Positions 16,749 through 34,395 of a stretch of DNA of 64,000 nucleotides are shown in pieces; position 1 is the stretch's first letter, and each line of letters begins with the position of its first letter. Below the pieces are notes generated by a model. That model saw only the letters and a program-made list of their open reading frames with translations. It ran no database searches and had not been told where the DNA came from. Source of the stretch: Akkermansia sp. (lineage in GTDB: Bacteria > Verrucomicrobiota > Verrucomicrobiia > Verrucomicrobiales > Akkermansiaceae). Location of the stretch: assembly GCA_022787425.1 (NCBI GenBank), contig JALFWB010000031.1:62001-126000 (forward strand). Direction: 5' to 3'. The translations under genes were made by a program, and so were the position numbers.

Positions 16749-17321
16749 ATGGCCAAACTTACAGAGCTGCAGCAGGCAGCGGCGAAGAAAATTACCGAGC
16801 GCTTTCCGCAGGTGAAGGCAACGGAATTCCGCGGAGACACAACCCTGACGGTTGATCCGGCGGATTTGACGGCAGTGATGACATTTGCCAAGCACACCTG
16901 CGGTTTCGATATGCTGGTGTGCGTCTCCTCAGTGGATCACTTGGGAGAGGAGCCGCGCTACGAGACGAACTACACAATCACCCAGGCAGAGACGGGGGCG
17001 AACCTTTTGGTGCGTTGCCCCGTGGCGGGTCCGGCTCCGGCGGTGCCCTCCATGGTGCCTGTATGGCGCTCGGCCAACTGGCTGGAGCGTGAGCAGTACG
17101 ACCTGATGGGTATCGAGTTTACCGGGCATCCGGATCTGCGCCGCATCATGATGTGGGAGGGTTACCCCTACAACCCGCTGCGCAAGGACTTCCCGGTGGC
17201 AGGCAAGGAGTTTGAGCAGGCGGGGATGGCCTTTACCGAGGTTGCACCCACGGCCGGCGGTCCGTTCACAACCCGACCGGGTACCACTGCAGGCAGCCGC
17301 GAGCCGAGCCCGCGCGCGTAG
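16749..17321 (+). CDS. nuoC: NADH-quinone oxidoreductase subunit C (NuoC)
   Basis: The 30-kDa-type peripheral-arm subunit of complex I, 190 aa from ATG 16749. A family-typical N-terminal half ([32 protein letters not shown]) leads into the conserved signature [26 protein letters not shown] and the following YPLRKDFP-like segment ([10 protein letters not shown]). A 35-residue Thr/Pro-rich tail after residue 150 is extra and probably disordered. It is co-transcribed with nuoB. In many bacteria nuoD comes next; here an RNase III-like gene does, so NuoC is a separate protein rather than a NuoCD fusion. Confidence 0.93.
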
Positions 17322-17413
17322 TCCCCGTTGCAGGGTTTCTGCAACCGTCGTTGTCCTTCCCGGCACGGCGGTTGCTTTTTCCCCGGAACTTCTGCCCGCT
17401 CACCCCTCACACC

Positions 17414-17725
17414 ATGTCTACCTTACCCCCGGATTCAGATCCCGTGTGCCGCGCCCAAGCTTGGGTCGGCGATGCCGTGCTGGCTCTCTATGTGCGCAGG
17501 TGGATCCTCAGTTTTAACGGCGGTGTCATCGATGGCGACCTTTTCATCGAGTTCACCTCCAACAACTTCCTGCGCCTCACCGGTAACGCAACGGGCGTAG
17601 AGGCTTGCATCGGCCGCGTGTATGAGAGCGAAGGGACGGAGGCTGCTTTCGCTTGGATTGAGAAGAATCTGCGTCCCAAGATGGATGCGCGGCTGCATAT
17701 TCTGCGCCGCAAAAATAAGCACTAA
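17414..17725 (+). CDS. Mini-ribonuclease III-like protein
   Basis: This 103-aa protein consists of a single RNase III-type domain. The core AWVGDAVLALYVRR matches the Mini-III (MrnC) version of the RNase III signature, with the catalytic-region Gly-Asp; the second acidic helix is around ESEGTEAAFAWIEK. There is no double-stranded RNA-binding domain. Mini-III enzymes trim 23S rRNA precursor ends in Firmicutes and plastids. The protein is shorter than the usual 125-140 aa but looks complete from ATG 17414 to a basic tail (LHILRRKNKH). It lies 92 bases after nuoC and 28 before the TPM gene. Function by family only. Confidence 0.75.
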   Translation: MSTLPPDSDPVCRAQAWVGDAVLALYVRRWILSFNGGVIDGDLFIEFTSNNFLRLTGNATGVEACIGRVYESEGTEAAFAWIEKNLRPKMDARLHILRRKNKH

Positions 17726-17753
17726 GCAGCTATAGGTTGTTTATTATCCCGAA

Positions 17754-19769
17754 ATGACGGAAGCCTCCCACCACCCCTCCGGAAAAAGTGAGCGAAGCAC
17801 CCGGGCAATCTGCCCCTGCTGCTTCTCCTACATGCACGCCGGGGCAGAGGTCTGCCCGCACTGCCGGTACCAACTCTCCAGGGCGGAGGAGGTTTTCACG
17901 GCTGAGAAGGTTCGCTTCCGCCGCGTGCATGATGTCGCCGGTGTCTTCTGCAATGAGGAGTACGCCGACCTCACGCACTATCTGGAGAAACTGGAGCGGC
18001 GCCTCCCCCCGGTGGTGCTCAGCGTTTATATTACCGGCTGTGGAAACCCGGACTTCCTCTGCGTCTTGGCACACTGGCTCCTGAATCACGCAGAGGTTGA
18101 CGATATCAGCTTCGGGCTGCGACAGAAGTCCAAGCTACTCTCCGAGAAATCCGTGAGCGTAGAGGCACCCGGCGAGCCGCGCAAGGCAGCTCCTGCAGAG
18201 ACCGGCAATGCCCTGCAGCGGGCCGTGCGCCGCGTGAGCAACGCGCTTCTGGATCGGAGTCATCCGCTCCCCCCGCCGGTGGATCCGCGTTGGTTCCTCA
18301 TTCTGGTGATGGATGTCAATCAGTCCGCCGCCTGTTTTTGTTGGGGATATATGCTGGATCCCTACGTGGACACCATGCGCATCAACAGCGCCATCATGAA
18401 GGGGATGCTTCAGTTCCGCGAGCGCTCGATGTCCGCTGCCATCAAGAAGGTGATGAAGGAGGCCGTTATTCAGATAGCCAAGCGCTCCCACCTCGTCCAC
18501 AAGGCGGCGGACAGGCGTTCCCGCGCGGCGGGGCTCTCCGGGCTCCTTCTTTTCCCTGCTCTGTTGACCGCACACGCCGTAAGCCCGGCCTCGGCTGCCG
18601 TTACCACCCCGCCCGCCCGGACGGCACCGCAGGAAGAAGACCTTGTAGCCGAGGAAGTGCCGGAGGCAACAGCGGAGGAAGTGCCGGAAGCAGCGGAGGA
18701 TGACGCCGTTGCGGAGGCGGTGGAGGAAACCACAACTTCCCCCGCGCCACAGCCAGTGCCTCAGCCCGACACACAACAGCAGCCCGCCGCTGCAGGCAGT
18801 GACCGCATGCCGAGGTGGACACCCGCTGACTACAGCATGCTGATGGATGGGCGTTTGGCGGACAGCTTCGCCGCGCTCTTCCCCGCACAGCCTGCATCGA
18901 CCACCAAGCGGACGGAAGCACGCGTTAACAAAACACCCCGGCGCAATGCCGCAGCAGAACAGAGCGACCTGCTGCGCCGCTACCATGACCACTTCCGCCT
19001 TCGTGATTCGAACAGCTCCGCCCTCTGCGATCCCATCGGGCTCCTCTCTGCCCCGGAGGCAGACGATGTTGATTATGTCCTGCGCCACACCAACGCAGCC
19101 TCCTCTTTCCGCATCTACGTTGTCATGGTGCGGGGTTCGGATAGCATACCCACCGAGTTGTCTGCCCCCGCCATCACACACGCGCTCGTACCTACCTATG
19201 AACACAGTGTTGTGATACGCTACACCCCCGGTGCCCCGGATTTCATCGACCTAGGCTACTGCAACATCCCCGGTGATGAAGCACAGCGTGAGGCCCGCCG
19301 CAACGCCGTGCGCAAGGCGGCCATCGCGGCGGGGGACCGGGTGGAGGGTATCCTGGCGGCCATCCGGAGTGTTCATGCGCAGCTTCTCCCCCTGTCCGCC
19401 GGCTTCGTCACGCCTAAAGACGGCGCGAACACGAAGCCCCCGGTTATTGACATCCCGATGGCACCGAAGGAGAAGGTAAAGAAGAAGGGGTTTCGAGAAA
19501 AGCTGGAGGCTATGGTAGAGGATCCGGAGACCTGCCGACTTCTGTCTATCACGGCCGCTGTCCTGCTCATCCTCACGGTGCTGGTTCTCCGCTTCATCTA
19601 CCTCAGCCACTGCGGCAAGCTGCGGGAGAGCACGCCGGACGTGCGGCTCGGCTCGCCTCACGGCGCGGGCGTTTGCCGCTCCATGCGCTACCTGACCGGC
19701 TACGTTATCAAGACAACCCCCATCTTCCCCTCCTCTCCCTCGGCGGGCGGAGGCAACCGGGGCGACTGA
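17754..19769 (+). CDS. TPM-domain (Psb32/MOLO-1-like) membrane protein with N-terminal zinc ribbon
   Basis: A 671-aa protein starting with a zinc ribbon (ICPCCFSYMHAGAEVCPHC, residues about 18-38). A TPM-like alpha/beta domain follows (about 55-235; PPVVLSVYITGCGNPDFLCVLAHWLLN, WFLILVMDVNQSAACFCWGYML). Next are a hydrophobic helix (about 262-280, LSGLLLFPALLTAHAVSPA), a Glu/Val/Ala-rich low-complexity linker (about 295-370) and a second TPM-like domain (about 405-560). A C-terminal transmembrane helix (ITAAVLLILTVLVLRFIYL) precedes a basic tail. TPM proteins act in photosystem repair, receptor assembly or as phosphatases in different organisms; here the role is unknown. The two-domain layout suggests one TPM domain on each side of the inner membrane. 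Confidence 0.72.
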   Translation: MTEASHHPSGKSERSTRAICPCCFSYMHAGAEVCPHCRYQLSRAEEVFTAEKVRFRRVHDVAGVFCNEEYADLTHYLEKLERRLPPVVLSVYITGCGNPDFLCVLAHWLLNHAEVDDISFGLRQKSKLLSEKSVSVEAPGEPRKAAPAETGNALQRAVRRVSNALLDRSHPLPPPVDPRWFLILVMDVNQSAACFCWGYMLDPYVDTMRINSAIMKGMLQFRERSMSAAIKKVMKEAVIQIAKRSHLVHKAADRRSRAAGLSGLLLFPALLTAHAVSPASAAVTTPPARTAPQEEDLVAEEVPEATAEEVPEAAEDDAVAEAVEETTTSPAPQPVPQPDTQQQPAAAGSDRMPRWTPADYSMLMDGRLADSFAALFPAQPASTTKRTEARVNKTPRRNAAAEQSDLLRRYHDHFRLRDSNSSALCDPIGLLSAPEADDVDYVLRHTNAASSFRIYVVMVRGSDSIPTELSAPAITHALVPTYEHSVVIRYTPGAPDFIDLGYCNIPGDEAQREARRNAVRKAAIAAGDRVEGILAAIRSVHAQLLPLSAGFVTPKDGANTKPPVIDIPMAPKEKVKKKGFREKLEAMVEDPETCRLLSITAAVLLILTVLVLRFIYLSHCGKLRESTPDVRLGSPHGAGVCRSMRYLTGYVIKTTPIFPSSPSAGGGNRGD

Positions 19770-23638: not shown

Positions 23639-23673
23639 GCAGAAAATACCCCCTACCCCGCCCCAACTTACCT

Positions 23674-23692
23674 TATGCATTTCTAATGCATA
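23674..23692. promoter_or_regulatory. Upstream palindrome related to the defence-operon operator
   Basis: TATGCATT-TCT-AATGCATA is an 8+3+8 inverted repeat. Its central 13 bases are the exact reverse complement of the core of the palindrome at 23831-23849. It is nested inside a second inverted repeat (CAACTTA 23664-23670 and TAAGTTG 23699-23705). A distal operator for the same regulator is a reasonable guess. Confidence 0.5.
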
Positions 23693-23760
23693 GGGTGCCT
23701 AAGTTGTTGATAATCAATGACTTATTGCAAATATGGGTGTAAAATAGGCGTATGAGGCAT

Positions 23761-23770
23761 CGGTATACCG
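23761..23770. repeat. 10-bp palindrome CGGTATACCG upstream of the defence operon
   Basis: A perfect palindrome in the 350-base non-coding stretch 23604-23959, bracketed by GGCATC/GATGCC (23756-23761 and 23790-23795). Function unknown. Confidence 0.4.
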
Positions 23771-23825
23771 AGGGAGAGAAAGGGCAAAAGATGCCGAAAA
23801 ATAAGCGGCTTCCCAACTTTTAGGC

Positions 23826-23854
23826 TTGACACAGCATTAGAAATGCTGTATACT
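23826..23854 (+). promoter_or_regulatory. Defence-operon promoter with palindromic spacer
   Basis: TTGACA (23826-23831), a 17-bp spacer and TATACT (23849-23854) form a near-consensus promoter. The palindrome ACAGCATT-AGA-AATGCTGT (23831-23849) fills the spacer exactly, sharing its first base with the -35 box and its last with the -10 box. A dimeric repressor bound here would block RNA polymerase completely. Confidence 0.82.
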
Positions 23855-23862
23855 AAGGGGCA

Positions 23863-23952
23863 ATGAGGGGTGCTGTCTCGATCGAATCAGCCTGGCGGGT
23901 TATATACCCCGGCTTTTCCATCACCTCCAATAGACGACAAACACACAACTGA
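23863..23952 (+). CDS. Possible 29-aa leader peptide ahead of the SNF2 gene
   Basis: ATG 23863 is 8 bases after the -10 box, the same spacing as the leaderless genes in this window. Its reading frame of 29 codons (starting MRGAVSIESAW) ends at TGA 23950-23952, 7 bases before the proposed SNF2 ATG. It could be a leaderless leader ORF that delivers ribosomes to the SNF2 start, since that start has no clear Shine-Dalgarno sequence. There is no homology or compositional evidence. The alternative is that the SNF2 protein itself begins at GTG 23870. Confidence 0.35.
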   Translation: MRGAVSIESAWRVIYPGFSITSNRRQTHN

Positions 23953-23959
23953 CAACTTA

Positions 23960-26836
23960 ATGGAATTAGTAACCAACTATCAGGCAAAATATTTTGCTCA
24001 CCTGCTTACAAGAGAAGGTGGCCAAGGCGTAGAGCGTTTGACTCAGTCTCTGCTCAATGCTTCCGTTGATTTGAATCCGCATCAGGTAGAGGCAGCCTTA
24101 TTCGCCCTACGTTCCCCCATCTCAAAAGGCGTACTACTGGCCGACGAAGTGGGATTGGGTAAAACCATTGAAGCAGGGCTGGTTCTTTGTCAGCTCTGGG
24201 CAGAGAAGCAACGAAATCTGCTCATTATTTGTCCCGCTTCTCTGCGGAAACAGTGGCAATGTGAACTTGAGAGCAAGTTCAACTTACCTGTTCAGATCGT
24301 GGATGCTAAATCCGCTCGTGAGTTGGCTAAACAGGGCTTGGCGAACCCGTTTGAGGGCAAGTTCATCAGCATATCGTCGTTCCAGTATGCGGCGCGTATG
24401 AGTGAGCAACTGCGGGTTGTTAGCTGGAATTGTGTCGTTATCGATGAGGCACACAAGCTGCGCAATGCTTACCGTGAAGCGAACCGGGTCGGTCAGGCCT
24501 TGCGTTGGGCTTTATCGGATAGGCGCAAGCTATTGCTGACGGCAACGCCTCTACAGAATTCTCTGAATGAGTTGTACGGCATATCCACCTTGCTGGATGA
24601 TACACTCTTCGGAGACCTTCCCAGTTTCCGCACTCGTTATGCAAACACCGGCGGAGACCGCGAGGGATTGCGTCAAAGACTCAGGGATTTCTGTTGGCGT
24701 ACGCTGCGTAGGGATGTCCGCGCATTTGTTCGCTATACGGACCGAATTCCCATCACGCAGACTTTCGAATCCTCGGACAGGGAACATCAACTTTATGAAG
24801 ATGTTTCCGCTTACTTGCAAGATCAAACCTCCTATGCATTCCCTCCGCGGCAACGCACCATGCTTACACTGGTTGTTCGCAAGGTCATGGCCTCATCAAC
24901 AACGGCTTTAATCGGTACATTGCAAAGCATTTTGTCCCGTTTGCTTTCGCTAAAGAGCGGACTTGATAGAAATAATCAACAGTTGTTGGAGCGCATCTTC
25001 GAGGACGATCCTGATATCTTGGAGGAATTGGCAGCTGCAGAGGAAGAAGATGATGTCAGCGAAGTGGTAACCGACACCGATGCCGAAGAACGCCCGATTG
25101 ATCTGTCAAAACTACAGGAGGAAATACAGCTTGTGCAAAGCTTCATTCGCAGGGGGCAAGCAATCGGAGCAGATACCAAAACAACGCAACTTCTCGTTGC
25201 GTTGAAAGTCGGCTGGGATAAGTTGCAGGAGTTGGGAGCAGAACAAAAAGCTGTTATCTTCACGGAATCCCGCCGGTCCATGCTTTTCCTGAGGGATTTC
25301 TTGGAGGGCAACGGTTATGCCGGGCAGGTTGTGTGTTTCTCCGGTGGCGGCAAGCAGGATCCCACGTCAGAGGCCATCTATCAGGATTATAAGGCAGATC
25401 ACCCGGATGATCCCTCTTCCAAGCCTATCATGATGCGTCACGCTTTGATTGAAGCCTTCAGGAACAAGTCCAAAATCCTCATTGCTACAGAAGCCGGGGC
25501 TGAGGGTATTAACCTCCAATTCTGTTCCATGGTCGTAAACTACGATCTACCGTGGAATCCCCAGCGTGTCGAGCAACGCATTGGACGCTGCCATCGTTAT
25601 GGTCAGCAACATGATGTCGTTGTCATCAATTTCTGCAATACACGCAATGCGGCAGACGTGCGCGTATTCGAGCTTCTGCGTGACAAGTTCAACCTGTTTG
25701 AGGGTATTTTCGGAGCCTCCAATGATGTGCTTGGGTGCATCGACCAATCCGGGCAATCTTTTGAACGCCGCATTCATGAAATCCTCCGCCTCTGCCGCAC
25801 TCCGCAGGAAATTCAAGCAGCATTCGATAAGTTGCAGGAGGAATTACAGGAACAAATCGCAGCGCAACGCGCAGCAACCTGCAAGGCAATTATCGAAAAT
25901 CTTGATGAAGATGTGCGAGAACACCTCAGGATTGACCCGGAATATGCGGGGCAATATCTCTCAAAGGGAGAAAAGCAGTTTATTGAACTTACCGAAAAAG
26001 TGCTGGCAAACCGTGCCACGTTTTATCCGGAAACCAAGACCTTCGTACTGTCGGATCCGCCCTTGCCGGATATTCGAGCCGGTCGATATTCCTATGATAG
26101 AAAGGAAAACAGCGGCGAGCTGCTTCCCTATCGCCCCAATTCTCCTTTGGGTGAATGGGTGCTTGACGAAGCAAAAAAATTGGATACACCTTACGCACAG
26201 GTCACTTTCGATATTTCATCCTACCAAGGAAGGATTTCTGTTGTTGAACAGCTGAAGGGTAAAAGTGGGTATCTGCGCCTGGACCGGCTGGTGCTGAAAA
26301 GTATCGATGCGCAGGAATTCCTGCTGTTTTCTGCACTGACAGATGATGGCTCAGTCGTTGAGGCAGAAACCATCGCCAAGCTGTTCGATATTTCCGCCAC
26401 AGATTGCGATTTCTCGTTGTCTATACCCGATGCCCTGTCCTCTCGCTTGGCCGCCAACGCAAGTCAATACGCTAAGGCCACCGCAAACAGAGTGGGTGAA
26501 GCCAATAATGCACATTATATTCAGGCTACGGAAAGGCTGAACCGCTGGAGTGACGACCAAATTGCTGCCGCTACACATAAGGTCGAGGTATTGAAAGCCA
26601 AGAAGCTGGAAATTGAACGGGGTATTCGCCATGCACAAACGCTGGACGAACAAGAACCCCTGCAAAGGGAACTCGATAAGATGCGCCGGGAGATTCGTAA
26701 AGCTCGCCACGAAATCGATGATGTCGAGGACGAAACCGATGCAAAACGCAACCAACTGTTGGATTCTTTGCAGCGCAAGCTTGTTCCGGAGATCTCCCGG
26801 GAAACTCTTTTTACCATCCATTGGAGCATTATTTAA
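23960..26836 (+). CDS. SNF2-family helicase/translocase of a restriction-like defence operon
   Basis: A 958-aa SF2 ATPase from ATG 23960. It starts NYQAKYFAHLLTREGG and soon reaches the nucleotide-binding LADEVGLGKTIEAGLVL (Asp62 onward), then PASLRKQW (motif Ia region), DEAH box at 162-165, and LTATPLQNS (motif III). The helicase C domain has LIATEAGAEGINLQFC and the motif VI region QRVEQRIGRCHRYGQ near residue 535. The last 110 residues are a charged coiled coil (about 850-945). Family members resemble the DISARM DrmD helicase and stand-alone SNF2 proteins beside methylases. It is the first gene of an operon with mod and res (11- and 4-base gaps). The role, probably DNA translocation or recognition of invading DNA, is inferred. 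Confidence 0.85.
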   Translation: MELVTNYQAKYFAHLLTREGGQGVERLTQSLLNASVDLNPHQVEAALFALRSPISKGVLLADEVGLGKTIEAGLVLCQLWAEKQRNLLIICPASLRKQWQCELESKFNLPVQIVDAKSARELAKQGLANPFEGKFISISSFQYAARMSEQLRVVSWNCVVIDEAHKLRNAYREANRVGQALRWALSDRRKLLLTATPLQNSLNELYGISTLLDDTLFGDLPSFRTRYANTGGDREGLRQRLRDFCWRTLRRDVRAFVRYTDRIPITQTFESSDREHQLYEDVSAYLQDQTSYAFPPRQRTMLTLVVRKVMASSTTALIGTLQSILSRLLSLKSGLDRNNQQLLERIFEDDPDILEELAAAEEEDDVSEVVTDTDAEERPIDLSKLQEEIQLVQSFIRRGQAIGADTKTTQLLVALKVGWDKLQELGAEQKAVIFTESRRSMLFLRDFLEGNGYAGQVVCFSGGGKQDPTSEAIYQDYKADHPDDPSSKPIMMRHALIEAFRNKSKILIATEAGAEGINLQFCSMVVNYDLPWNPQRVEQRIGRCHRYGQQHDVVVINFCNTRNAADVRVFELLRDKFNLFEGIFGASNDVLGCIDQSGQSFERRIHEILRLCRTPQEIQAAFDKLQEELQEQIAAQRAATCKAIIENLDEDVREHLRIDPEYAGQYLSKGEKQFIELTEKVLANRATFYPETKTFVLSDPPLPDIRAGRYSYDRKENSGELLPYRPNSPLGEWVLDEAKKLDTPYAQVTFDISSYQGRISVVEQLKGKSGYLRLDRLVLKSIDAQEFLLFSALTDDGSVVEAETIAKLFDISATDCDFSLSIPDALSSRLAANASQYAKATANRVGEANNAHYIQATERLNRWSDDQIAAATHKVEVLKAKKLEIERGIRHAQTLDEQEPLQRELDKMRREIRKARHEIDDVEDETDAKRNQLLDSLQRKLVPEISRETLFTIHWSII

Positions 26837-26847
26837 AACCACACACC

Positions 26848-29766
26848 ATGTCACCTCAGTTTACCTCTCTCGTTGAAAAGCTCAAGGAAATCTTCCAGAT
26901 GGATAAGCCGGAACTCGATTTCGGCATCTATCGGATTCTGAATTCCCGCCGTAAGCAAATCCGGAATTTCTTGGATGAGCAGCTTGCTGATAAAGTTCAG
27001 ACTGCACTTTCAGGCAACGCCGCCGCAGAGAACGAAGTATACTCGCATCTGCTGACCTTCTTCAGCCGCTACTACGACAAGGGGGACTTCATCTCCCTGC
27101 GCCGCTACAAGGGCGATACCTATGCTATCCCCTACAATGGAGAAGAGGTAAAGCTGCATTGGGCAAATGCTGATCAGTATTATGTCAAGTCCGGAGAAAA
27201 TTTCACTCATTATGATTTTTCCCTCCCGAATGGTGCAAAAGTCCATTTCCGTCTGGTCTCTGCAGATCTGACAAAGGACAACATCAAAGATAATGATGCA
27301 GTCCGCTGCTTTGTCCTATGGGATCCGGCTGAGGCGGAAGGTGAAGAACCGGGAACATATCCGGCAACATTTCTTGAGGAAAAGGGGGGGGAGTTGTACG
27401 TCTACTTCCAGTACCGTCGTTTCAAAAAAAAGGGAAAAAAGGTGGAACAAGCAGAGGCGTCGGTTCAAGCAGAGGTGTCGCGTCAAGCAAAGAAGTCGCT
27501 TCAAGCAGAGAAGTCGGATGCTGCAGCAACAGCATTCCTTGCGGAGCTTAAGGCGGATGTGAAATTGCTTGACCGCTTTTCTCAATTGGATTCCCCTGCG
27601 CCTACCAAGGCGGACCCAAAAAGAAATCTGTTCCGTAAGTATCTGGATGCCTATACCGCGAAGAATACCAGCGATTATTTCATCCACAAGGATCTCAAGG
27701 GCTTTCTCACACGCGAGCTTGATTTCTATATTAAGAACGAAATGATGCATCTGGATGACATCCAAAATGCCTCCTCGTTTTCACAGATAGAAAAGAATCT
27801 GCGCACGATTCAGGCAGTTCGTGCTATAGCTTCGGAATTGATTGATTTCATGGCACAAATCGAAAACTTCCAAAAGAAGCTTTGGCTCAAGAAGAAGTTT
27901 GTGGTGCAGTGTGATTATTGCCTCACGATGGATTTGGTGCCCAAGGAGCTCCATGCTGAGGTATTGGATAATCCGAAGCAACAGGAAGAATGGATCAAAC
28001 TCAATACCACAGAAGGCTCATTGATTACCGATGCTCGCATGATCGACACCAAATTCTTCGATGAATCTTTCAAGGCCCGTCTCCTAGCATCCATCGATCA
28101 TCTGGATGAATGTTGTGATGGGTTGTTAATTCATTCAGAAAACTATGGTGCCTTGCGTCTCATCAAAACCAAATACGAACGCAAGGTCGATGCTATCTAT
28201 CTTGATCCTCCATACAATACAGGAAACGATAATAATTTCTTATATAAAGACAATTATCAGCACTCGTCATGGTTATCATGCATGAGCGACCGAGTACAAG
28301 TCGCATATCATATAATGAGTGATGCTGCCGGCATATGGGTAAGTACAGATGACGGGGAATATTCCGTTCTTAAGGACCTTCTTTCAGATATTTATGGATT
28401 GCAGAATTTTGTCGCGGATGTTATCTGGAATTGTAGAAAGTCTGTATCCAATGATGCCCTTATTTCAACATCTGTCAATCATACAACTTTCTTCACCAAG
28501 AATAAAAAGCACTTGGATGCAAACAAAACGACATTTCGCCTAAAAGAAGATAAGAAGGGGTTTGCAAATCCTGATAAGGATATAAGAGGGCCTTGGAAAT
28601 TAGATCCACTTGACGCTCCCAACGAAAGGAAAAATTTAAGTTACCCAATAATCAATCCAGAGAATGGGAAAACCTTTTATCCCCCAGCAGGAAGATGTTG
28701 GCGATTTGAAGAGCAAGAGACGTTGCGATACTTGTCTGAGGGGCGTATATTATTTGGAAAAACAGGAAAAGGAAAACCAGGATTCAAACGATTCTTATCC
28801 GAAGCCATTTCTAAAGGGAAAGTTGCCACAACACTGTGGGATGATGTAAAAACAACAACATCGGCGACCAAAATGTTGCTTGATATGTTTAGTGACAGTA
28901 TTCCCAAAACATCTATCGATTCCATAAAACCCAAGCCCACAGAGCTTGTTGAGAAAATTGTGACCTTGTGCAGTAACAGTTGTGGGCTCACAGTAGATTT
29001 CTTCGCAGGTTCCGGCACTACAGGTCACGCTGTTATCAATATGAATCGAGAAGATGGAGGGGATCGCAAATATATATTGGTTGAAATGGGAGACCATTTT
29101 GACACTGTTCTCATGCCCAGGATCAAAAAGGTAGTATATTCTCCTGAGTGGAAAAACGGCAAGCCAGTAACATGCGACAAAGGCATCTCCCATTGCTTCA
29201 AATACATGTCACTGGAGAGCTACGAAGATACCCTAAACAATATCGAGCTGCAGGAAGCCGGTGGAGGAGACATGTTTGATGCCCTCATGCAGGAGGAGTA
29301 TCTGCTCAAATACATGCTGGACATAGAAAGCAGGGGCTCCATTATCAGCACAGATTCATTCCACAAGCCTTTCGATTATAAGCTGAAAATTGCAGCGGAT
29401 TCCAGCGGGGCAAGCGAAATGCGCAAGGTGGACTTGGTGGAAACCTTTAATTACCTGCTTGGACTTCACGTTGAAACGCAGGAACGCCATGTGGATAAAG
29501 GGTACATTATGGTCGAGGGGCGACTCAAGAATGATGACCGCATACTCATTGTATGGCGAGACTGCGACACAATAGATTCGGCAGAGCTGAACGACTTACT
29601 GAATAAGAAAGATATACACCCCGGTGACAGAGAGTTTGATTACATTTACGTCAATGGAGACCACAGCATCGCCAACAAGAAGTTGGGGAACGATGACAAT
29701 GGGCCTGAATTGAAGGTACGCTCCATTGAGGAAGAATTCTTGACACGCATGTTCGAGGAAGAATAA
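26848..29766 (+). CDS. Type III-like adenine-specific DNA methyltransferase (Mod)
   Basis: A 972-aa beta-class amino-methyltransferase that should modify host DNA within this operon. Motif IV is IYLDPPYNTGNDNNF (Asp453) and motif I is VDFFAGSGTTGHAV (Phe719). DPPY before FxGxG is the order of type III Mod proteins, and the roughly 265 residues between them are the target-recognition region. The N-terminal 400 residues are an extended helical module. It includes four 18-base in-frame repeats (27448-27519) coding QAE(A/V/K)S-type units, preceded by a G8 tract (27384-27391) and an A8 tract (27424-27431). Codon use turns AT-rich between motifs IV and I. At 972 aa it is larger than classical Mod (about 650). 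Confidence 0.88.
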   Translation: MSPQFTSLVEKLKEIFQMDKPELDFGIYRILNSRRKQIRNFLDEQLADKVQTALSGNAAAENEVYSHLLTFFSRYYDKGDFISLRRYKGDTYAIPYNGEEVKLHWANADQYYVKSGENFTHYDFSLPNGAKVHFRLVSADLTKDNIKDNDAVRCFVLWDPAEAEGEEPGTYPATFLEEKGGELYVYFQYRRFKKKGKKVEQAEASVQAEVSRQAKKSLQAEKSDAAATAFLAELKADVKLLDRFSQLDSPAPTKADPKRNLFRKYLDAYTAKNTSDYFIHKDLKGFLTRELDFYIKNEMMHLDDIQNASSFSQIEKNLRTIQAVRAIASELIDFMAQIENFQKKLWLKKKFVVQCDYCLTMDLVPKELHAEVLDNPKQQEEWIKLNTTEGSLITDARMIDTKFFDESFKARLLASIDHLDECCDGLLIHSENYGALRLIKTKYERKVDAIYLDPPYNTGNDNNFLYKDNYQHSSWLSCMSDRVQVAYHIMSDAAGIWVSTDDGEYSVLKDLLSDIYGLQNFVADVIWNCRKSVSNDALISTSVNHTTFFTKNKKHLDANKTTFRLKEDKKGFANPDKDIRGPWKLDPLDAPNERKNLSYPIINPENGKTFYPPAGRCWRFEEQETLRYLSEGRILFGKTGKGKPGFKRFLSEAISKGKVATTLWDDVKTTTSATKMLLDMFSDSIPKTSIDSIKPKPTELVEKIVTLCSNSCGLTVDFFAGSGTTGHAVINMNREDGGDRKYILVEMGDHFDTVLMPRIKKVVYSPEWKNGKPVTCDKGISHCFKYMSLESYEDTLNNIELQEAGGGDMFDALMQEEYLLKYMLDIESRGSIISTDSFHKPFDYKLKIAADSSGASEMRKVDLVETFNYLLGLHVETQERHVDKGYIMVEGRLKNDDRILIVWRDCDTIDSAELNDLLNKKDIHPGDREFDYIYVNGDHSIANKKLGNDDNGPELKVRSIEEEFLTRMFEEE
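27384..27391 (+). repeat. G8 homopolymer inside mod
   Basis: Eight consecutive G within codons LEEKGGELY of the methylase. A 1-base slip would shift the frame and truncate Mod at about residue 180. An A8 run 32 bases on (27424-27431) is a second slip-prone site. Confidence 0.7.
27448..27519 (+). repeat. Four 18-bp tandem repeats inside mod
   Basis: Units start at 27448, 27466, 27484 and 27502. They share CAAGCA(G/A)AG followed by GTCG, each coding six residues beginning QA. Copy-number changes would add or remove six residues without shifting frame. Confidence 0.8.
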
Positions 29767-29770
29767 AGCC

Positions 29771-32700
29771 ATGGCAAGGACAGCGTCAACAAGCAAGCCC
29801 AAACGCAAGGAAGAAAAAGCCGGGAAGATAGGCATGCAGCAGTTCCACGGCATGCTGATACTGGCACAATGGGCGCGGAGTTTCTTCCGGGATAGCGATT
29901 TCCGCATCCTACAACGTGCATTGAACCGGAAAGAACTGGAGGGAATCAACCCCAAAACTGGTCAAACACGCTTTTTCCATGAGCTGATGGATAGCACCTT
30001 GTTCAACATGAACAGGATAGATCAGGATGCCTTTAGCTGCTACGACAAGAACATTGTACGCCATTGGAACAGAATAACGGAGCGGCGCAATCAGGAAGAA
30101 GGGAAGATATTGGGAATGAAATACTTCCAATATCTCAGTCTGCTGGTGACGGAGCTTTATCTGGATTGGCTCTTCAACCACCCGACGGAATTGCTGTCCG
30201 AATTAAACAATCTAGTAAAAGAGTACAATAAGGCTAACCCGAGGAATCGGATCAGGGCGTACAAGGGCGCCCCTGCAGATACTCCAATATTTACGGAAGA
30301 AACGCTACGCAAGATATCCTATTGGGAAGCTACAGGCGCAGGGAAGACCCTAGTGATGCATGTAAACCTGTTGCAGTATTTAGAGTATGCAGGCAAAGCC
30401 GAAAAACAGCCGGACAGAATCATTCTCCTGACACCCAATGAGGGCTTGTCGCAACAGCATGTAGAAGAATTCGCCTTATCCAGCATTTCTGCGGAATTGA
30501 TGAGTGAGATGGGCTTGTTCCGCCCCCAAGGCATCGAGACCGCTTATGTTGTAGACTCCGGAAAGCTGATATCCGACACTTCTAGCAAAAAGAAGGGAGA
30601 AAAGAGCTTTTATGCCCAAAGTTTTGAAGGCAACAATCTTGTGCTGGTGGACGAGGGGCACCACGGCAGCTCCAAAGAAGACGGCGAACACCGAAGATCC
30701 CGTGAACTATTGTGCAGAAATGGCTTCTCATTTGAATACTCAGCCACTTTGGGACAAGCCGTTGCGAGGGAACAGACCAAAGAGCTGAAAAACGAATACG
30801 CTAAAAGCATCCTGTTTGATTATTCGTACCGCTTTTTCTATGAAGATGGTTACGGAAAGGAGTCTTTTATACTCAATTTGAAAGACGATAACAATGAGGA
30901 GCACTTATTCCGCTATCTGTGCGCTAATTTGCTGAGCTATTATCAGCAGCACTATTTATTTGCGAAGAATGAGGCTGTTATGCAACGTTTTCGCATAGCC
31001 AAACCCCTGTGCATCTTTGTGGGTAATACCGTCAACACTGAGGCCTCCGATGTACAACGAGTAGTTGAATTCTATGCAAAGGTGTTGAATGAGAGAAAGC
31101 ATGTAGAGGAGATTTTCCAAGACTTGGTGCGCAATGAGGATATACTCAGAATGGGGACCAGCAATCCCATACAGGGACGCTATAAGCCGCTTATGGGGCG
31201 CAGCGAAGCGGAGATATACGAGGACATGTTGCACAGAGTGTTCAATGCCGACCACACTGCCCCGCTTAAGGTTTGCTTGTCGAAAGGAAGCGGTGAGATA
31301 ACTTTGTCCGTAGGAGAAAGCGAACCATTCGGATTGGTTACAGTCGGTGATGCCTCAAAGCTTGTCGATGCCTTGGAACAAAATGCAGCCGAGCGTGAGC
31401 TGCACTATGTGGTTCAGAGACACGACTTCAGCGAAGAATACTTCATGAACATCAACAAGGAAAACAGTACGATTTCCTTGCTGATCGGATCAAGAAAATT
31501 TAATGAAGGATGGTCAAGCTGGCGTGTATCTGCCATGGGCTTATTGAACGTGGGGGTTAGGGAAGGCCCGCAGATTATTCAGCTATTCGGCCGTGGAATA
31601 CGATTGCGCGGCCACGATTTCTCATTGAAGCGTTCTACCCTCACAGAGCGACAGGTTCACGCAAAGGACGCATTTTTGGAGTATTTGGAGACGCTGCAGA
31701 TATTCGGTGTACGTGCCGATTACATGGCCAATTTCAAGACTTATCTGGAAAATGAGGGAGTGCATACACTCGACCAAGTACTGACTCTGCAATTTCCGAT
31801 TCGCAAAAACAGCTTCCCAGCCGACGGCTTGATGGTACCGCAAATCAAGGATGGTTACCGACTCAATCAGGCCAAAGGCTTCAAGAGTCAGAAAGCCACT
31901 TTGTTTGAATTACCTCACGGGTACGAAGATAAAATCAAACGCATCGAAGTGACGTATGATGATTTTGCCTATGTGCAGATGATGCGTACAGATAATGAAC
32001 CCTCGGAAACCAGCACAGCCATTGATTTGGGTGTTAAGCTGGATGCACGAGCATTACCCTATTTTGATTGGGATGGTATCTATCGAGAACTTCAGAAAGA
32101 GAAAGCGCTATGCGGATATTGGAATCTCGCCATCAGCAAACAGAAGCTGATAGAATTCGCATACACCGAGAACGGCTGGTACAGATTGCGAACCAGAAAG
32201 GAGGATGTCACCTTTGACTCATTCGGTAAATTGTCCAACATAGAACGCCTATTCCGTGTCCTCATACTTTCCTATATGGAGCAATTCTACAAAAGATTGC
32301 AAACCGCGTATGAAGATGAACACCGGGAAATGCGGCCTTTGAATGGAGACTGGATACCGGATGAATATGTGTTTGAAATCGAAAACACTGATGAGGGACG
32401 CTTGTGGAATGAGAATCTGCAAAAGCTCCAGGAAATTATCAAAAAAGAGGAGGTGCCTTTCAGGGAAGTGAATCAGTGGATGCAAGAGGTTCCCGGTTTT
32501 ATGGTTATAGCGTTCAAGCAGCACCTGTATTCCCCTTTGTTCTATGTTTCGAACAGGGGCTCCCTGCCCTTTACCTACAAACCGATCTCCCTCGGCGCCG
32601 CAAGCGAAGAGCAGTTTGTCCGGGATCTGCAAACGTTTTACAACTCACCTGCCGGAAAAGAGTATTTTGAAAATATCGATTTGTACCTGATGCGAAATGC

Positions 32701-33064
32701 TGCCAACAAGTTGAAAGGCATAGGATTTGCACAAGCCGGAAACTTCTATCCCGACTTCATGATGTGGATTATTGACAAAACCACCAAGCAACAATACCTT
32801 ACATTCATTGATCCTAAGGGCTTGCGCAATGTTCCCTTCACCAGCCCCAAATTAAACTTTGCCGAAGAAATTAAGGCATTGCAGAAGGTCGTGAATCAGA
32901 ATTGTGACAATCCGATTATCCTCAATTCCGTTATCTTGTCCTCGACACCATATTCGGATGAAATCCTTAAACAACACACCCATGAAGAATATGATTCCAA
33001 GCATATCCTCTTCTTAGACGAGGACTATTTGCCCAAGCTGTTCAAATTCGCTCGCAAGGAATAG
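29771..33064 (+). CDS. Type III restriction-like helicase-nuclease (Res)
   Basis: A 1097-aa SF2 helicase joined to a nuclease. A basic N-terminal tail leads to the helicase core: Walker A EATGAGKTLVMHVN (187-193), Walker B VLVDEGHHGSS (Asp294), SATLGQAVA (motif III) and motif VI IIQLFGRGIRLRG (about 601-613). The C-terminal domain holds a PD-(D/E)xK nuclease pattern: FYPDFMMW with Asp995, then FIDPKGL with Asp1014 and Lys1016. No stop or frameshift interrupts it. It begins 4 bases after mod, so the two are translationally linked. Together they look like a type III-type restriction-modification pair with an added SNF2 partner. ATP-dependent cleavage of unmodified DNA is the expected activity. 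Confidence 0.88.
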   Translation: MARTASTSKPKRKEEKAGKIGMQQFHGMLILAQWARSFFRDSDFRILQRALNRKELEGINPKTGQTRFFHELMDSTLFNMNRIDQDAFSCYDKNIVRHWNRITERRNQEEGKILGMKYFQYLSLLVTELYLDWLFNHPTELLSELNNLVKEYNKANPRNRIRAYKGAPADTPIFTEETLRKISYWEATGAGKTLVMHVNLLQYLEYAGKAEKQPDRIILLTPNEGLSQQHVEEFALSSISAELMSEMGLFRPQGIETAYVVDSGKLISDTSSKKKGEKSFYAQSFEGNNLVLVDEGHHGSSKEDGEHRRSRELLCRNGFSFEYSATLGQAVAREQTKELKNEYAKSILFDYSYRFFYEDGYGKESFILNLKDDNNEEHLFRYLCANLLSYYQQHYLFAKNEAVMQRFRIAKPLCIFVGNTVNTEASDVQRVVEFYAKVLNERKHVEEIFQDLVRNEDILRMGTSNPIQGRYKPLMGRSEAEIYEDMLHRVFNADHTAPLKVCLSKGSGEITLSVGESEPFGLVTVGDASKLVDALEQNAAERELHYVVQRHDFSEEYFMNINKENSTISLLIGSRKFNEGWSSWRVSAMGLLNVGVREGPQIIQLFGRGIRLRGHDFSLKRSTLTERQVHAKDAFLEYLETLQIFGVRADYMANFKTYLENEGVHTLDQVLTLQFPIRKNSFPADGLMVPQIKDGYRLNQAKGFKSQKATLFELPHGYEDKIKRIEVTYDDFAYVQMMRTDNEPSETSTAIDLGVKLDARALPYFDWDGIYRELQKEKALCGYWNLAISKQKLIEFAYTENGWYRLRTRKEDVTFDSFGKLSNIERLFRVLILSYMEQFYKRLQTAYEDEHREMRPLNGDWIPDEYVFEIENTDEGRLWNENLQKLQEIIKKEEVPFREVNQWMQEVPGFMVIAFKQHLYSPLFYVSNRGSLPFTYKPISLGAASEEQFVRDLQTFYNSPAGKEYFENIDLYLMRNAANKLKGIGFAQAGNFYPDFMMWIIDKTTKQQYLTFIDPKGLRNVPFTSPKLNFAEEIKALQKVVNQNCDNPIILNSVILSSTPYSDEILKQHTHEEYDSKHILFLDEDYLPKLFKFARKE

Positions 33065-33261
33065 GGAGCCATATGGTGGCACCCATTTTCCGGGACATCC
33101 CGAACAAGATACCTTGATTGAGCGCGGACAGGAACGAAGCCGAGGCATCCTTAGCCCGTTCCAATCTGCTACGTGTTTGCTAAAATCATCCTCGTTAATC
33201 CTCCAAGAAAGGCTCGAAAAGAGGCTACCACCTTACATTGCAGGGGCGGGGAAGCGGGGAA

Positions 33262-33294
33262 AGCAAATCCCCCGCAGTGTGGGACCACGGGGGA
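33262..33294 (-). terminator. Possible terminator of tRNA-Lys
   Basis: Seven-base-pair arms (33268-33274 / 33288-33294) are followed on the minus strand by ATTTGCTTT. It lies 8 bases beyond the tRNA 3' end. Stem and T-run are both modest. Confidence 0.4.
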
Positions 33295-33301
33295 AAGATG
33301 C

Positions 33302-33374
33302 TACGCGAACCGGGACTCGAACCCGGGACCAATAGATTAAAAGTCTACTGCTCTACCGACTGAGCTATTCGCGC
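33302..33374 (-). tRNA. tRNA-Lys (anticodon TTT)
   Basis: The 73-base minus-strand gene folds into a complete cloverleaf. It has a 7-bp acceptor stem closed by a G-T pair at 1-72, D-stem GCTC/GAGC, and an anticodon stem of 5 bp (one G-T) around loop CTTTTAA. The TTCGAGT T-loop sits on a perfect CCGGG/CCCGG stem, with discriminator A. CCA is not encoded. A promoter lies 26 bases upstream. The gene sits at the edge of the lower-GC defence block with its 3' end facing res, but no attachment-site repeat was seen. Confidence 0.97.
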
Positions 33375-33400
33375 ACATGGCCGCGAAGCGGCGTGGGTGC

Positions 33401-33429
33401 ATTCTACAACAGATGGGGGAAGATGTCAA
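33401..33429 (-). promoter_or_regulatory. tRNA-Lys promoter
   Basis: On the minus strand TTGACA (33429-33424), a 17-bp spacer and TAGAAT (33406-33401) lie upstream of the tRNA. A small GC hairpin (around 33380-33392) occupies the leader. Confidence 0.8.
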
Positions 33430-33509
33430 GGCAAAATATGACGCAGGCAAAAAAATCAGAAGGCAACTCAGGAGGCATAGCCGGAGAAGCCCGGGGACTA
33501 AATCTGTAA

Positions 33510-34274
33510 AAGGCGGCATATCCTCTGACTGAGCTTGACAAGAAGGATGCCGAAGCGTATGATGAGATAGCCGTTGACATGCTGACCGCAGAAGGACCAC
33601 ACATGAAGGAATGGGTTCTGCAGGGTGATAGCGTCCTCTATACCGCCGCCGGTATTATTCGTGAAACGCCGGATTACGATTTCTGAGTAGAGAAAGAATT
33701 CAGCTACCGGACTCTGAGCATCCCCAAGGCAATCAACCGCTTGGCGAAATTTATATCCGCTCTTTGGCAAATTCACCCTTTCGGAGAGGGCAACACCCGC
33801 ACAACAGCCGTATTCACGATCAAATACCTACGATCATTCGGTTTTGACATCAGGAACGAGACTTTCGCACGACATTCTTGGTATTTCCGGAATGCCTTGG
33901 TACGCGCCAATTACAAAAACCTGAGCAAGGGTATTTATGCTACTACGGAATATATCGAGGCATTTCTCAGGAATCTAATTCTCTCCGAGAATCATGAGCT
34001 CAAGAATCGTGCTCTGTTAGTGAAGGAAGCATCACCGTCTGATATGGCACCATCGTCTGCCCCAAAGTGCAAAAATTGCACTTTGGATTGCACTTTGGAG
34101 GGATTAGTCATACTCAACTTCTTACGAAATACCCCGACAGCAACGCAAAAGGCCCTCGCTGCGCATCTTGGCAAATCGGAGAGAACAATCAAAACCATAA
34201 CCGTCCGCTTGGTGAAGAAAGGCATCCCAGAGCGGAGAAACGGCAAAAGGAATGGTTTTTGGGTGATTAGGTGA
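33510..34274 (+). pseudogene. Broken Fic-family AMPylator gene with C-terminal winged helix
   Basis: The frame runs from just after TAA 33507-33509 to 34274 with an internal TGA at 33684-33686. After the stop, the protein reads EKEFSYRTLSIPKAINRLAKF and the intact Fic active-site motif HPFGEGNTRT, then a winged-helix-like end (TQKALAAHLGKSERTIKTIT). Before the stop, 58 codons (ending TPDYDF) may be an eroded N-terminal half; I cannot assign them. Fic enzymes transfer AMP to target proteins and often act as toxins beside restriction systems. Without its N-terminus, where the inhibitory helix usually lies, this copy is probably dead. A shortened product from TTG 33741 (177 aa) cannot be excluded. 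Confidence 0.75.
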
Positions 34275-34330
34275 GGCGTGATCTGAGCTGACAGTCGAGG
34301 GCTTCCACTGCGTCGTGAGTAAAGCCGGGA

Positions 34331-34382
34331 AAAAATATCCCCCATGCCTCCGGGCAAGGTGGAGGAATGGGGGAAACTTTTT
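34331..34382. terminator. Bidirectional terminator between the Fic remnant and the acyl-CoA synthetase
   Basis: Fourteen-base arms (34338-34351 / 34361-34374, one mismatch) are flanked by CTTTTTC on the plus side and ATATTTTTTCC on the minus side. It would end transcription from both converging units. Confidence 0.8.
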
Positions 34383-34395
34383 CGGGAAGGTGGGA

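Follow-up and report, generated by a model that had tools for sequence, protein, structure and literature searches.

Type III restriction-modification enzymes are two-protein machines, made of a methyltransferase (Mod) and a nuclease (Res). They recognize an asymmetric site, methylate one strand and perform ATP-dependent cutting with two inverted sites. In this study, an operon was analysed in which a Mod-Res pair is preceded by a gene coding for a SNF2 protein. The operon lies in a stretch of 64,000 nucleotides (the window) from an Akkermansia sp. genome (assembly GCA_022787425.1, contig JALFWB010000031.1, positions 62,001 to 126,000). SNF2-Mod-Res is a recurrent system, and this SNF2 family is found almost always beside type III Mod-Res genes. 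The operon is probably a complete three-component type III variant in which the SNF2 protein acts with Res, perhaps by clearing proteins from DNA.

Several described systems can be compared with this locus. EcoP15I needs two inverted sites; about 30 ATP serve as a switch and the enzyme then slides by diffusion to a second enzyme (PMC4490356). ICEKp258.2 carries a mobile two-gene type III system with Mod and Res of 616 and 986 amino acids (aa), and the part of its gene table considered here lists no SNF2 gene, making it a natural motor-less comparator (PMC10763509). ARMADA combines a PglX-like methyltransferase with YprA and BrxHII/RapA-like helicases (PMC12458937). BREX-related systems have a RapA-like Swi2/Snf2 helicase beside an N6-methyltransferase (PMC12839542).

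The open reading frames (ORFs) for SNF2, Mod and Res are all intact, with gaps of 11 bases (SNF2/Mod) and 4 bases (Mod/Res), as proposed in the first-pass annotation, and no accessory gene lies between them (Table 1). The homologous part of SNF2 begins only downstream of an in-frame GTG at 23870, and the ATG at 23960 was taken as the start. The protein consists of a motor (residues 1–~590), an alpha+beta domain (~680–816) and a coiled-coil hairpin (824–941), predicted in the structure model as helices 824–891 and 895–941. It matched the Pfam family SNF2-rel_dom (1.5e-33) and Helicase_C. The motifs GLGKT (65–69), DEAH (162–165) and QR..R (539–546) were invariant in 12 homologues. The proposed 958-aa SNF2 translocase with a C-terminal coiled coil is thus supported by Pfam, motifs and predicted helices. 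When the structure model was searched with Foldseek, RapA was the top match, aligned along the whole protein (E 6e-24); by Foldseek and phmmer it is the nearest well-studied relative. With VIA-align, SNF2 motor domains of chromatin remodellers came top (Z about 19–23, residues 22–584). In PADLOC, the best family was DrmD (PDLC02619, 594 bits), followed by BrxH-type helicases. The score against the NCBIfam model DrmD_b was 597 bits, well short of its cut-off of 950. From these matches, the protein appears to be a translocase of the RapA/DrmD class, a relative of DrmD and not DrmD itself.

Mod has a long N-terminal region (1–~420), a DPPY motif (453–456) and an FxGxG motif (719–723). D453, P454, P455, F719, G721 and G723 were invariant in 24 homologues, and the beta-class order read earlier from Asp453 and Phe719 was found again. 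Mod matched N6_N4_Mtase in Pfam (5.4e-27) and MTase_III in PADLOC (PDLC03646, 856 bits), and the profile matches in the comparison with type III Mods had E values of 1e-54 to 1e-57. Its structure model had a predicted template modelling score (pTM) of 0.72, and type III Mods ranked first in the structure comparison: 6k0w (Z 27.1, root mean square deviation (rmsd) 3.0 over 357), EcoP15I 4zcf (Z 26.3, rmsd 13.0 over 439) and Mbo45V 7dsu (Z 25.7, rmsd 3.8 over 327). Other amino-methyltransferases reached Z 19.4 or less. The mod gene contains an in-frame tandem repeat (27448–27516, 3.8 copies of an 18-bp unit) coding for a Q-A-E/K-rich linker near residues 200–223, which was not seen there in the relatives compared. 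Phase variation through this repeat was ruled out, since changes in the number of 18-bp units preserve the frame.

Res carries the motifs GAGKT (189–193), DEGH (294–297), PDF (994–996) and DPKG (1014–1017). It was assigned to the type III REase family of PADLOC (REase_III PDLC03654, 838 bits) and matched ResIII in Pfam (5.7e-08); none of the NCBIfam models matched it. The nuclease residues pointed out in the first-pass annotation (Asp995, Asp1014 and Lys1016) are present, but the lysine is not a family-wide feature. Among 23 family members, D995 is invariant, position 1014 is D or E, and position 1016 (window 32816–32818) has K in 13 members and H in the other 10. This K/H split is unrelated to the presence of SNF2. 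EcoP15I Res was not reached from this Res by direct search, either with the single sequence or with a profile. An indirect profile link to EcoP15I-like Res covers the first RecA domain only (prob 95.8, E 7.6e-09). A profile made from ten shorter Res proteins of partner lineages described below (short A and short B) matched EcoP15I Res at 4e-53. PADLOC families, Mod fold and Res motifs together support a type III-style Mod-Res pair.

The likeness to type III enzymes such as EcoP15I and Mbo45V therefore includes a beta-class Mod with the same fold, a Res with a superfamily 2 (SF2) motor and a PD-(D/E)xK-like end, and adjacent mod and res genes. The differences are the leading SNF2 gene, the length of Mod (972 aa with the long N-terminal region, against 644 aa for the EcoP15I Mod chain) and the divergence of the 1097-aa Res, too large for EcoP15I Res to be retrieved by sequence or profile. 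The operon was classed as a type III variant because SNF2 is a recurrent third component whereas classical systems have mod and res only. DUF4391, a neighbour of type III genes, was considered as a fourth gene. No match to it turned up in the host genome, a negative that is weakened by equally silent controls.

DISARM class 1 also combines a SNF2 helicase, from the neighbourhood of DrmD, with a methyltransferase. However, the SNF2 protein of the window is below the DrmD equivalog cut-off, its methyltransferase partner is a type III Mod and not DrmMI (adenine) or DrmMII (cytosine), and a Res nuclease is present. DrmA, DrmB (DUF1998/MZB) and DrmC were absent from the operon in Pfam and PADLOC scans, in agreement with the first reading. 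The MZB domain of DrmB was not found anywhere in the host genome, with positive controls, and the system is for this reason not DISARM. Calling it a hybrid with DISARM was too strong: it has a relative of DrmD and no DISARM core gene. ARMADA resembles the operon in bringing together a BrxHII/RapA-like helicase and a DNA methyltransferase, but the operon lacks a PglX-like methyltransferase and YprA, and ARMADA as described does not include a type III Res (PMC12458937). Nor does it have the PglZ, BrxC or DUF499-type partner of BREX; the scan for PglZ and BrxC families covered the three genes and their nearest neighbours and found none. Two neighbourhoods that look BREX-related (L072 and L127) contain DUF1156 methyltransferases and distant SNF2 proteins. 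By the features tested, the locus is not DISARM, BREX or ARMADA but probably a three-component type III variant. No named system with SNF2, Mod and Res was found in PADLOC, NCBIfam or the literature searched, an incomplete search, so that a name may exist elsewhere. In PADLOC, the parts score separately as DrmD, MTase_III and REase_III.

A mode of action like that of DISARM or BREX was also considered, in which Mod would mark self and SNF2 and Res would block unmethylated DNA largely without cutting. The PADLOC ranking of SNF2, closest to DrmD and then to BrxH-type helicases, speaks for it, as does the pairing of a methyltransferase and a RapA-like helicase in ARMADA and the BREX-related systems (PMC12458937, PMC12839542). 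It is nevertheless very improbable, given a beta-class type III Mod that is not PglX-like, a Res that retains its nuclease motif, a genome in which no DrmB domain was found and an operon without any PglZ, BrxC or YprA homologue.

The recurrence of the trio was examined in four samples: GTDB contigs (Mod seed), plasmids, the phylum of the window and virus-classified contigs. The last was seeded with SNF2 itself and thus has no bias towards Mod. Among 33 loci from GTDB contigs, SNF2 was immediately or almost immediately upstream of Mod in 11, from Kiritimatiellota, Planctomycetota, Verrucomicrobiota, Elusimicrobiota, Pseudomonadota, Thermodesulfobacteriota and others. Twelve loci had Mod-Res without any SNF2, three of which end in or soon after Res. 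On plasmids, SNF2 had matches in 45 records that covered 80% or more of the query; among the matches listed, the lowest score was 539 bits, against at most about 220 bits for other, unrelated SNF2 proteins. In the phylum of the window, operon-type SNF2 was found in 10/145 genomes with at least 593 bits, the next match having 141 bits. Mod was adjacent in eight of these ten, one gene was at a contig end, and one (L102) had no recognized Mod or Res. On the virus-classified contigs, 33 loci extended 2.5 kb or more past SNF2, and 30 of them contained both Mod and Res. The order was SNF2-Mod-Res in 29/30 and Mod-Res-SNF2 in 1/30; in the former group, SNF2 directly adjoined Mod in 20/29 and Mod adjoined Res in 24/29. 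The same three genes recur in the same order in distant phyla, which rules out a chance association. The first reading had raised the question whether SNF2 always goes with this pair. SNF2 is indeed almost always beside Mod-Res, but the converse does not hold, many Mod-Res pairs having no SNF2.

In a tree, the SNF2 proteins formed one clade with a support of 98. RapA and four other SNF2 proteins were used as outgroups, with no true DISARM DrmD among them; these outgroups sit on long branches, and the points where they join are unreliable. This clade and the gap in plasmid scores suggest that the operon-type SNF2 proteins form one discrete family.

Among 17 plasmid regions examined, 16 had Mod and Res genes beside SNF2, some of them decayed. 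The trio was found on plasmids of E. coli, Klebsiella, Salmonella, Blastomonas and others. Intact operons are carried by plasmids of E. coli (conjugative) and Klebsiella; in these, a small helix-turn-helix gene overlaps the SNF2 start. Two complete copies were present among 5,426 E. coli genomes. The exception among the 17 is Thioclava plasmid p5 (L129 7986–11687), where a 1233-aa protein joins SNF2 to the nuclease end of Res. In Ketogulonicigenium, SNF2 and Res are separate proteins, and the Thioclava protein is 98.7% and 93% identical to them, respectively. It is therefore the product of a deletion that took out Mod and the N-terminal part of Res, and was rejected as a functional fusion. Decayed copies were also seen in two genomes, G020 (L076) and G108 (L080), where a break near residues 470–500 divides Res into two ORFs. 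SNF2 is split too in G108; in G020 it is intact and Res is frameshifted.

SNF2 is partnered with three Mod-Res lineages, named long (PADLOC PDLC03646/03654), short A (PDLC03634/03647) and short B (PDLC03636/03648), with 10, 5 and 15 representatives in the virus-classified set. Only two changes of the long/short label are needed on the SNF2 tree, so SNF2 was kept through two or more exchanges of the Mod-Res partner. Long Res proteins with SNF2 cluster in the Res tree, on which the presence of SNF2 takes 4 changes, compared with 12.5 for shuffled labels. Seen from Mod-Res, the association is therefore specific to certain lineages; SNF2 was not seen in several deep branches of the long Mod-Res. 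Distances between SNF2 proteins track those between Res proteins (Spearman 0.45, p 0.001, 16 loci). The agreement is weak for the N- and C-terminal parts of Mod (0.25 and 0.28) and absent for its target-recognition part (0.01). Since SNF2 divergence follows Res and not the recognition part of Mod, a role in restriction rather than in recognition is hinted at. In two plasmid operons (Priestia and Athalassotoga), the place of SNF2 is taken by a UvrD helicase whose end is of the PD-(D/E)xK type. This replacement suggests that the position before Mod-Res is a slot for a helicase.

In the genus, the operon's SNF2 was found in only 4/76 genomes. The operon belongs to a variable block with a GC content of 0.40–0.51, compared with ~0.60 outside; the third-codon-position GC is 0.49–0.56 inside and 0.70–0.83 outside. 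In the near relative G051, the two flanking genes have 96–97% protein identity, and the similarity ends at 23653 and restarts at 34395. The block thus has no counterpart beside the flanking genes of G051, which is not the same as a clean empty site, the two flanks being on separate contigs there. SNF2 of this family was not found in G051. In genomes G020 and G025, the operon is at another location, beside a tyrosine recombinase. Taken together, the low frequency in the genus, the block without counterpart and the change of location point to a distribution that is patchy and, most likely, horizontal.

The proposed mechanism starts from three intact genes with conserved catalytic motifs, from the fold of Mod, and from the recurrence and patchy horizontal spread of the operon. 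From sequence comparisons, we infer an anti-phage or anti-plasmid function. Mod would recognize and methylate host sites. Mod and Res would form the restriction complex, whose SF2 motor would fire at unmethylated sites and whose C-terminal nuclease would cut. A complex that slides passively should be halted by DNA-bound proteins. SNF2 would interact physically with Mod-Res, translocate on DNA and clear bound proteins or push the sliding complex, allowing restriction on crowded phage or plasmid DNA. This help on occupied DNA was proposed because EcoP15I slides passively and RapA, an RNA polymerase recycling factor, removes stalled RNA polymerase from DNA (PMC9303389). Obstacle clearing is the least certain step and is put forward tentatively.

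RapA can also be taken as a model for a safety or recycling factor. SNF2 would then strip Mod-Res from host DNA at forks or after cleavage, and so prevent self-cutting or free the enzyme. RapA is the best Foldseek match and recycles RNA polymerase (PMC9303389), SNF2 is the first gene, ahead of Mod and Res, and its divergence follows that of Res. But many Mod-Res pairs cope without SNF2, and SNF2 is intact in G020 despite the frameshift in Res, although this decay may be recent. We regard such a role as improbable compared with a contribution of SNF2 to restriction.

Several observations weigh against a three-component variant. Nine of the Mod-Res loci from GTDB contigs have both flanks covered and no SNF2, and the many relatives of this kind mean that SNF2 is not required in every type III system. 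SNF2 without recognized Mod-Res is rare but occurs (L102, L164 and L170; L171 is fragmentary). The co-divergence of SNF2 and Res is only moderate in the 16 loci, and the lack of tracking of the Mod recognition part may reflect recombination there. The SNF2 structure model is of modest confidence (pTM 0.42). No functional study of SNF2-bearing relatives was found in the literature searched. Finally, in other copies of the operon, unrelated defence-type genes are found between the three genes (Table 1), so neighbours in such operons can be independent modules. SNF2 could accordingly be an anti-phage module that shares a promoter with a two-gene type III system, the two travelling together and acting separately. 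The frequent embedding of defence genes and the common Mod-Res pairs without SNF2 are in line with this, and promoter sharing could also yield a near-exclusive partnership. However, the embedded genes vary between operons whereas SNF2 is constant and comes first (29/30), and it was kept with Mod-Res through at least two lineage exchanges and is hardly ever alone. An independent module is thus unlikely, and a SNF2 protein acting with Res is preferred.

Table 1 Features of the operon and its surroundings in the window, and genes found in other copies of the operon (locus handles L)
Feature	Location	Strand	Remarks
SNF2/RapA-class dsDNA translocase (putative)	23960..26836	+	958 aa; ATG 23960; Pfam, PADLOC, NCBIfam, motifs, Foldseek
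Mod, beta-class DNA methyltransferase	26848..29766	+	972 aa; ATG 26848; Pfam, PADLOC, structure matches
Res, SF2 motor + PD-(D/E)xK-like end	29771..33064	+	1097 aa; ATG 29771; PADLOC, Pfam, motifs, profile link
Sigma-70-like site TTGACA-17-TATACT	23826..23854	+	consensus match; inverted repeat over and around spacer
~175-bp repeat resembling a miniature inverted-repeat transposable element (MITE), terminal GCATTTCTAATGC motifs in opposite orientation	23677..23850	+	genome-wide matches
Variable block with operon	23654..34394		no match beside G051 flanking genes; low GC
UvrD-type helicase in SNF2 position	L061 6016–8961; L074 6174–8960		Priestia, Athalassotoga plasmids
AAA+DUF4276 (PADLOC HEC-01)	L004, L056; L069 by annotation		
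GmrSD/DUF262	L006, L062, L064		
SLFN_AlbA	L005		
Fic	L018		
RhuM	L015		
AbiJ_NTD4	L025		locus without SNF2
DUF1016	L012		locus without SNF2
Abi_2	L058		
AIPR	L063		

The single promoter assigned earlier to the operon was only partly upheld. The site agrees with the sigma-70 consensus at 11/12 positions, which is a consensus match alone and not evidence of transcription. It is not specific to the operon, because it falls in the right end of the MITE-like repeat, which has ~27 full or partial matches in the host genome. The 13-mer GCATTTCTAATGC marks the ends of this repeat, with 5 occurrences in 2.5 Mb against 0 for the reversed control. Most copies retain TTGAC but not TATACT; a few have the completing TATACT. 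The element may supply the operon promoter, and could act as a mobile outward promoter. The inverted repeat ACAGCATT-AGA-AATGCTGT spans and surrounds the spacer of the site. It was rejected as the specific operator of a dedicated regulator, its sequence being part of the genome-wide repeat.

Just 3' of Res is a tRNA-Lys (TTT) on the minus strand (33300–33375). Past it, an apparent remnant of a Fic-domain gene (33498–34274) contains a 177-aa ORF (33741–34274; PADLOC PDC-S72, 174 bits), and is interrupted by stop codons upstream of this ORF. Beyond the window, contig C43 of the host genome has a second Mod-like match adjoining a 942-aa ResIII frame (~17263–18608), probably a further restriction-modification locus.

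That a motor has been retained with type III genes in eight or more phyla, and despite changes of partner, suggests an overlooked subtype. In its widest form, the proposal would make SNF2-Mod-Res a separate, widespread and mobile type III subtype with at least three Mod-Res lineages, in which SNF2 makes restriction active and obstacle-clearing; we consider this possible, though somewhat doubtful. For defence annotation, the operon genes are named apart in the records ('SNF2-related protein', 'DNA methyltransferase', 'helicase') and libraries score DrmD, MTase_III and REase_III as separate parts. For plasmid biology, intact copies are carried by conjugative plasmids of Enterobacteriaceae. The operon also raises the question of how a passively sliding restriction complex copes with the protein-covered DNA of the cell.

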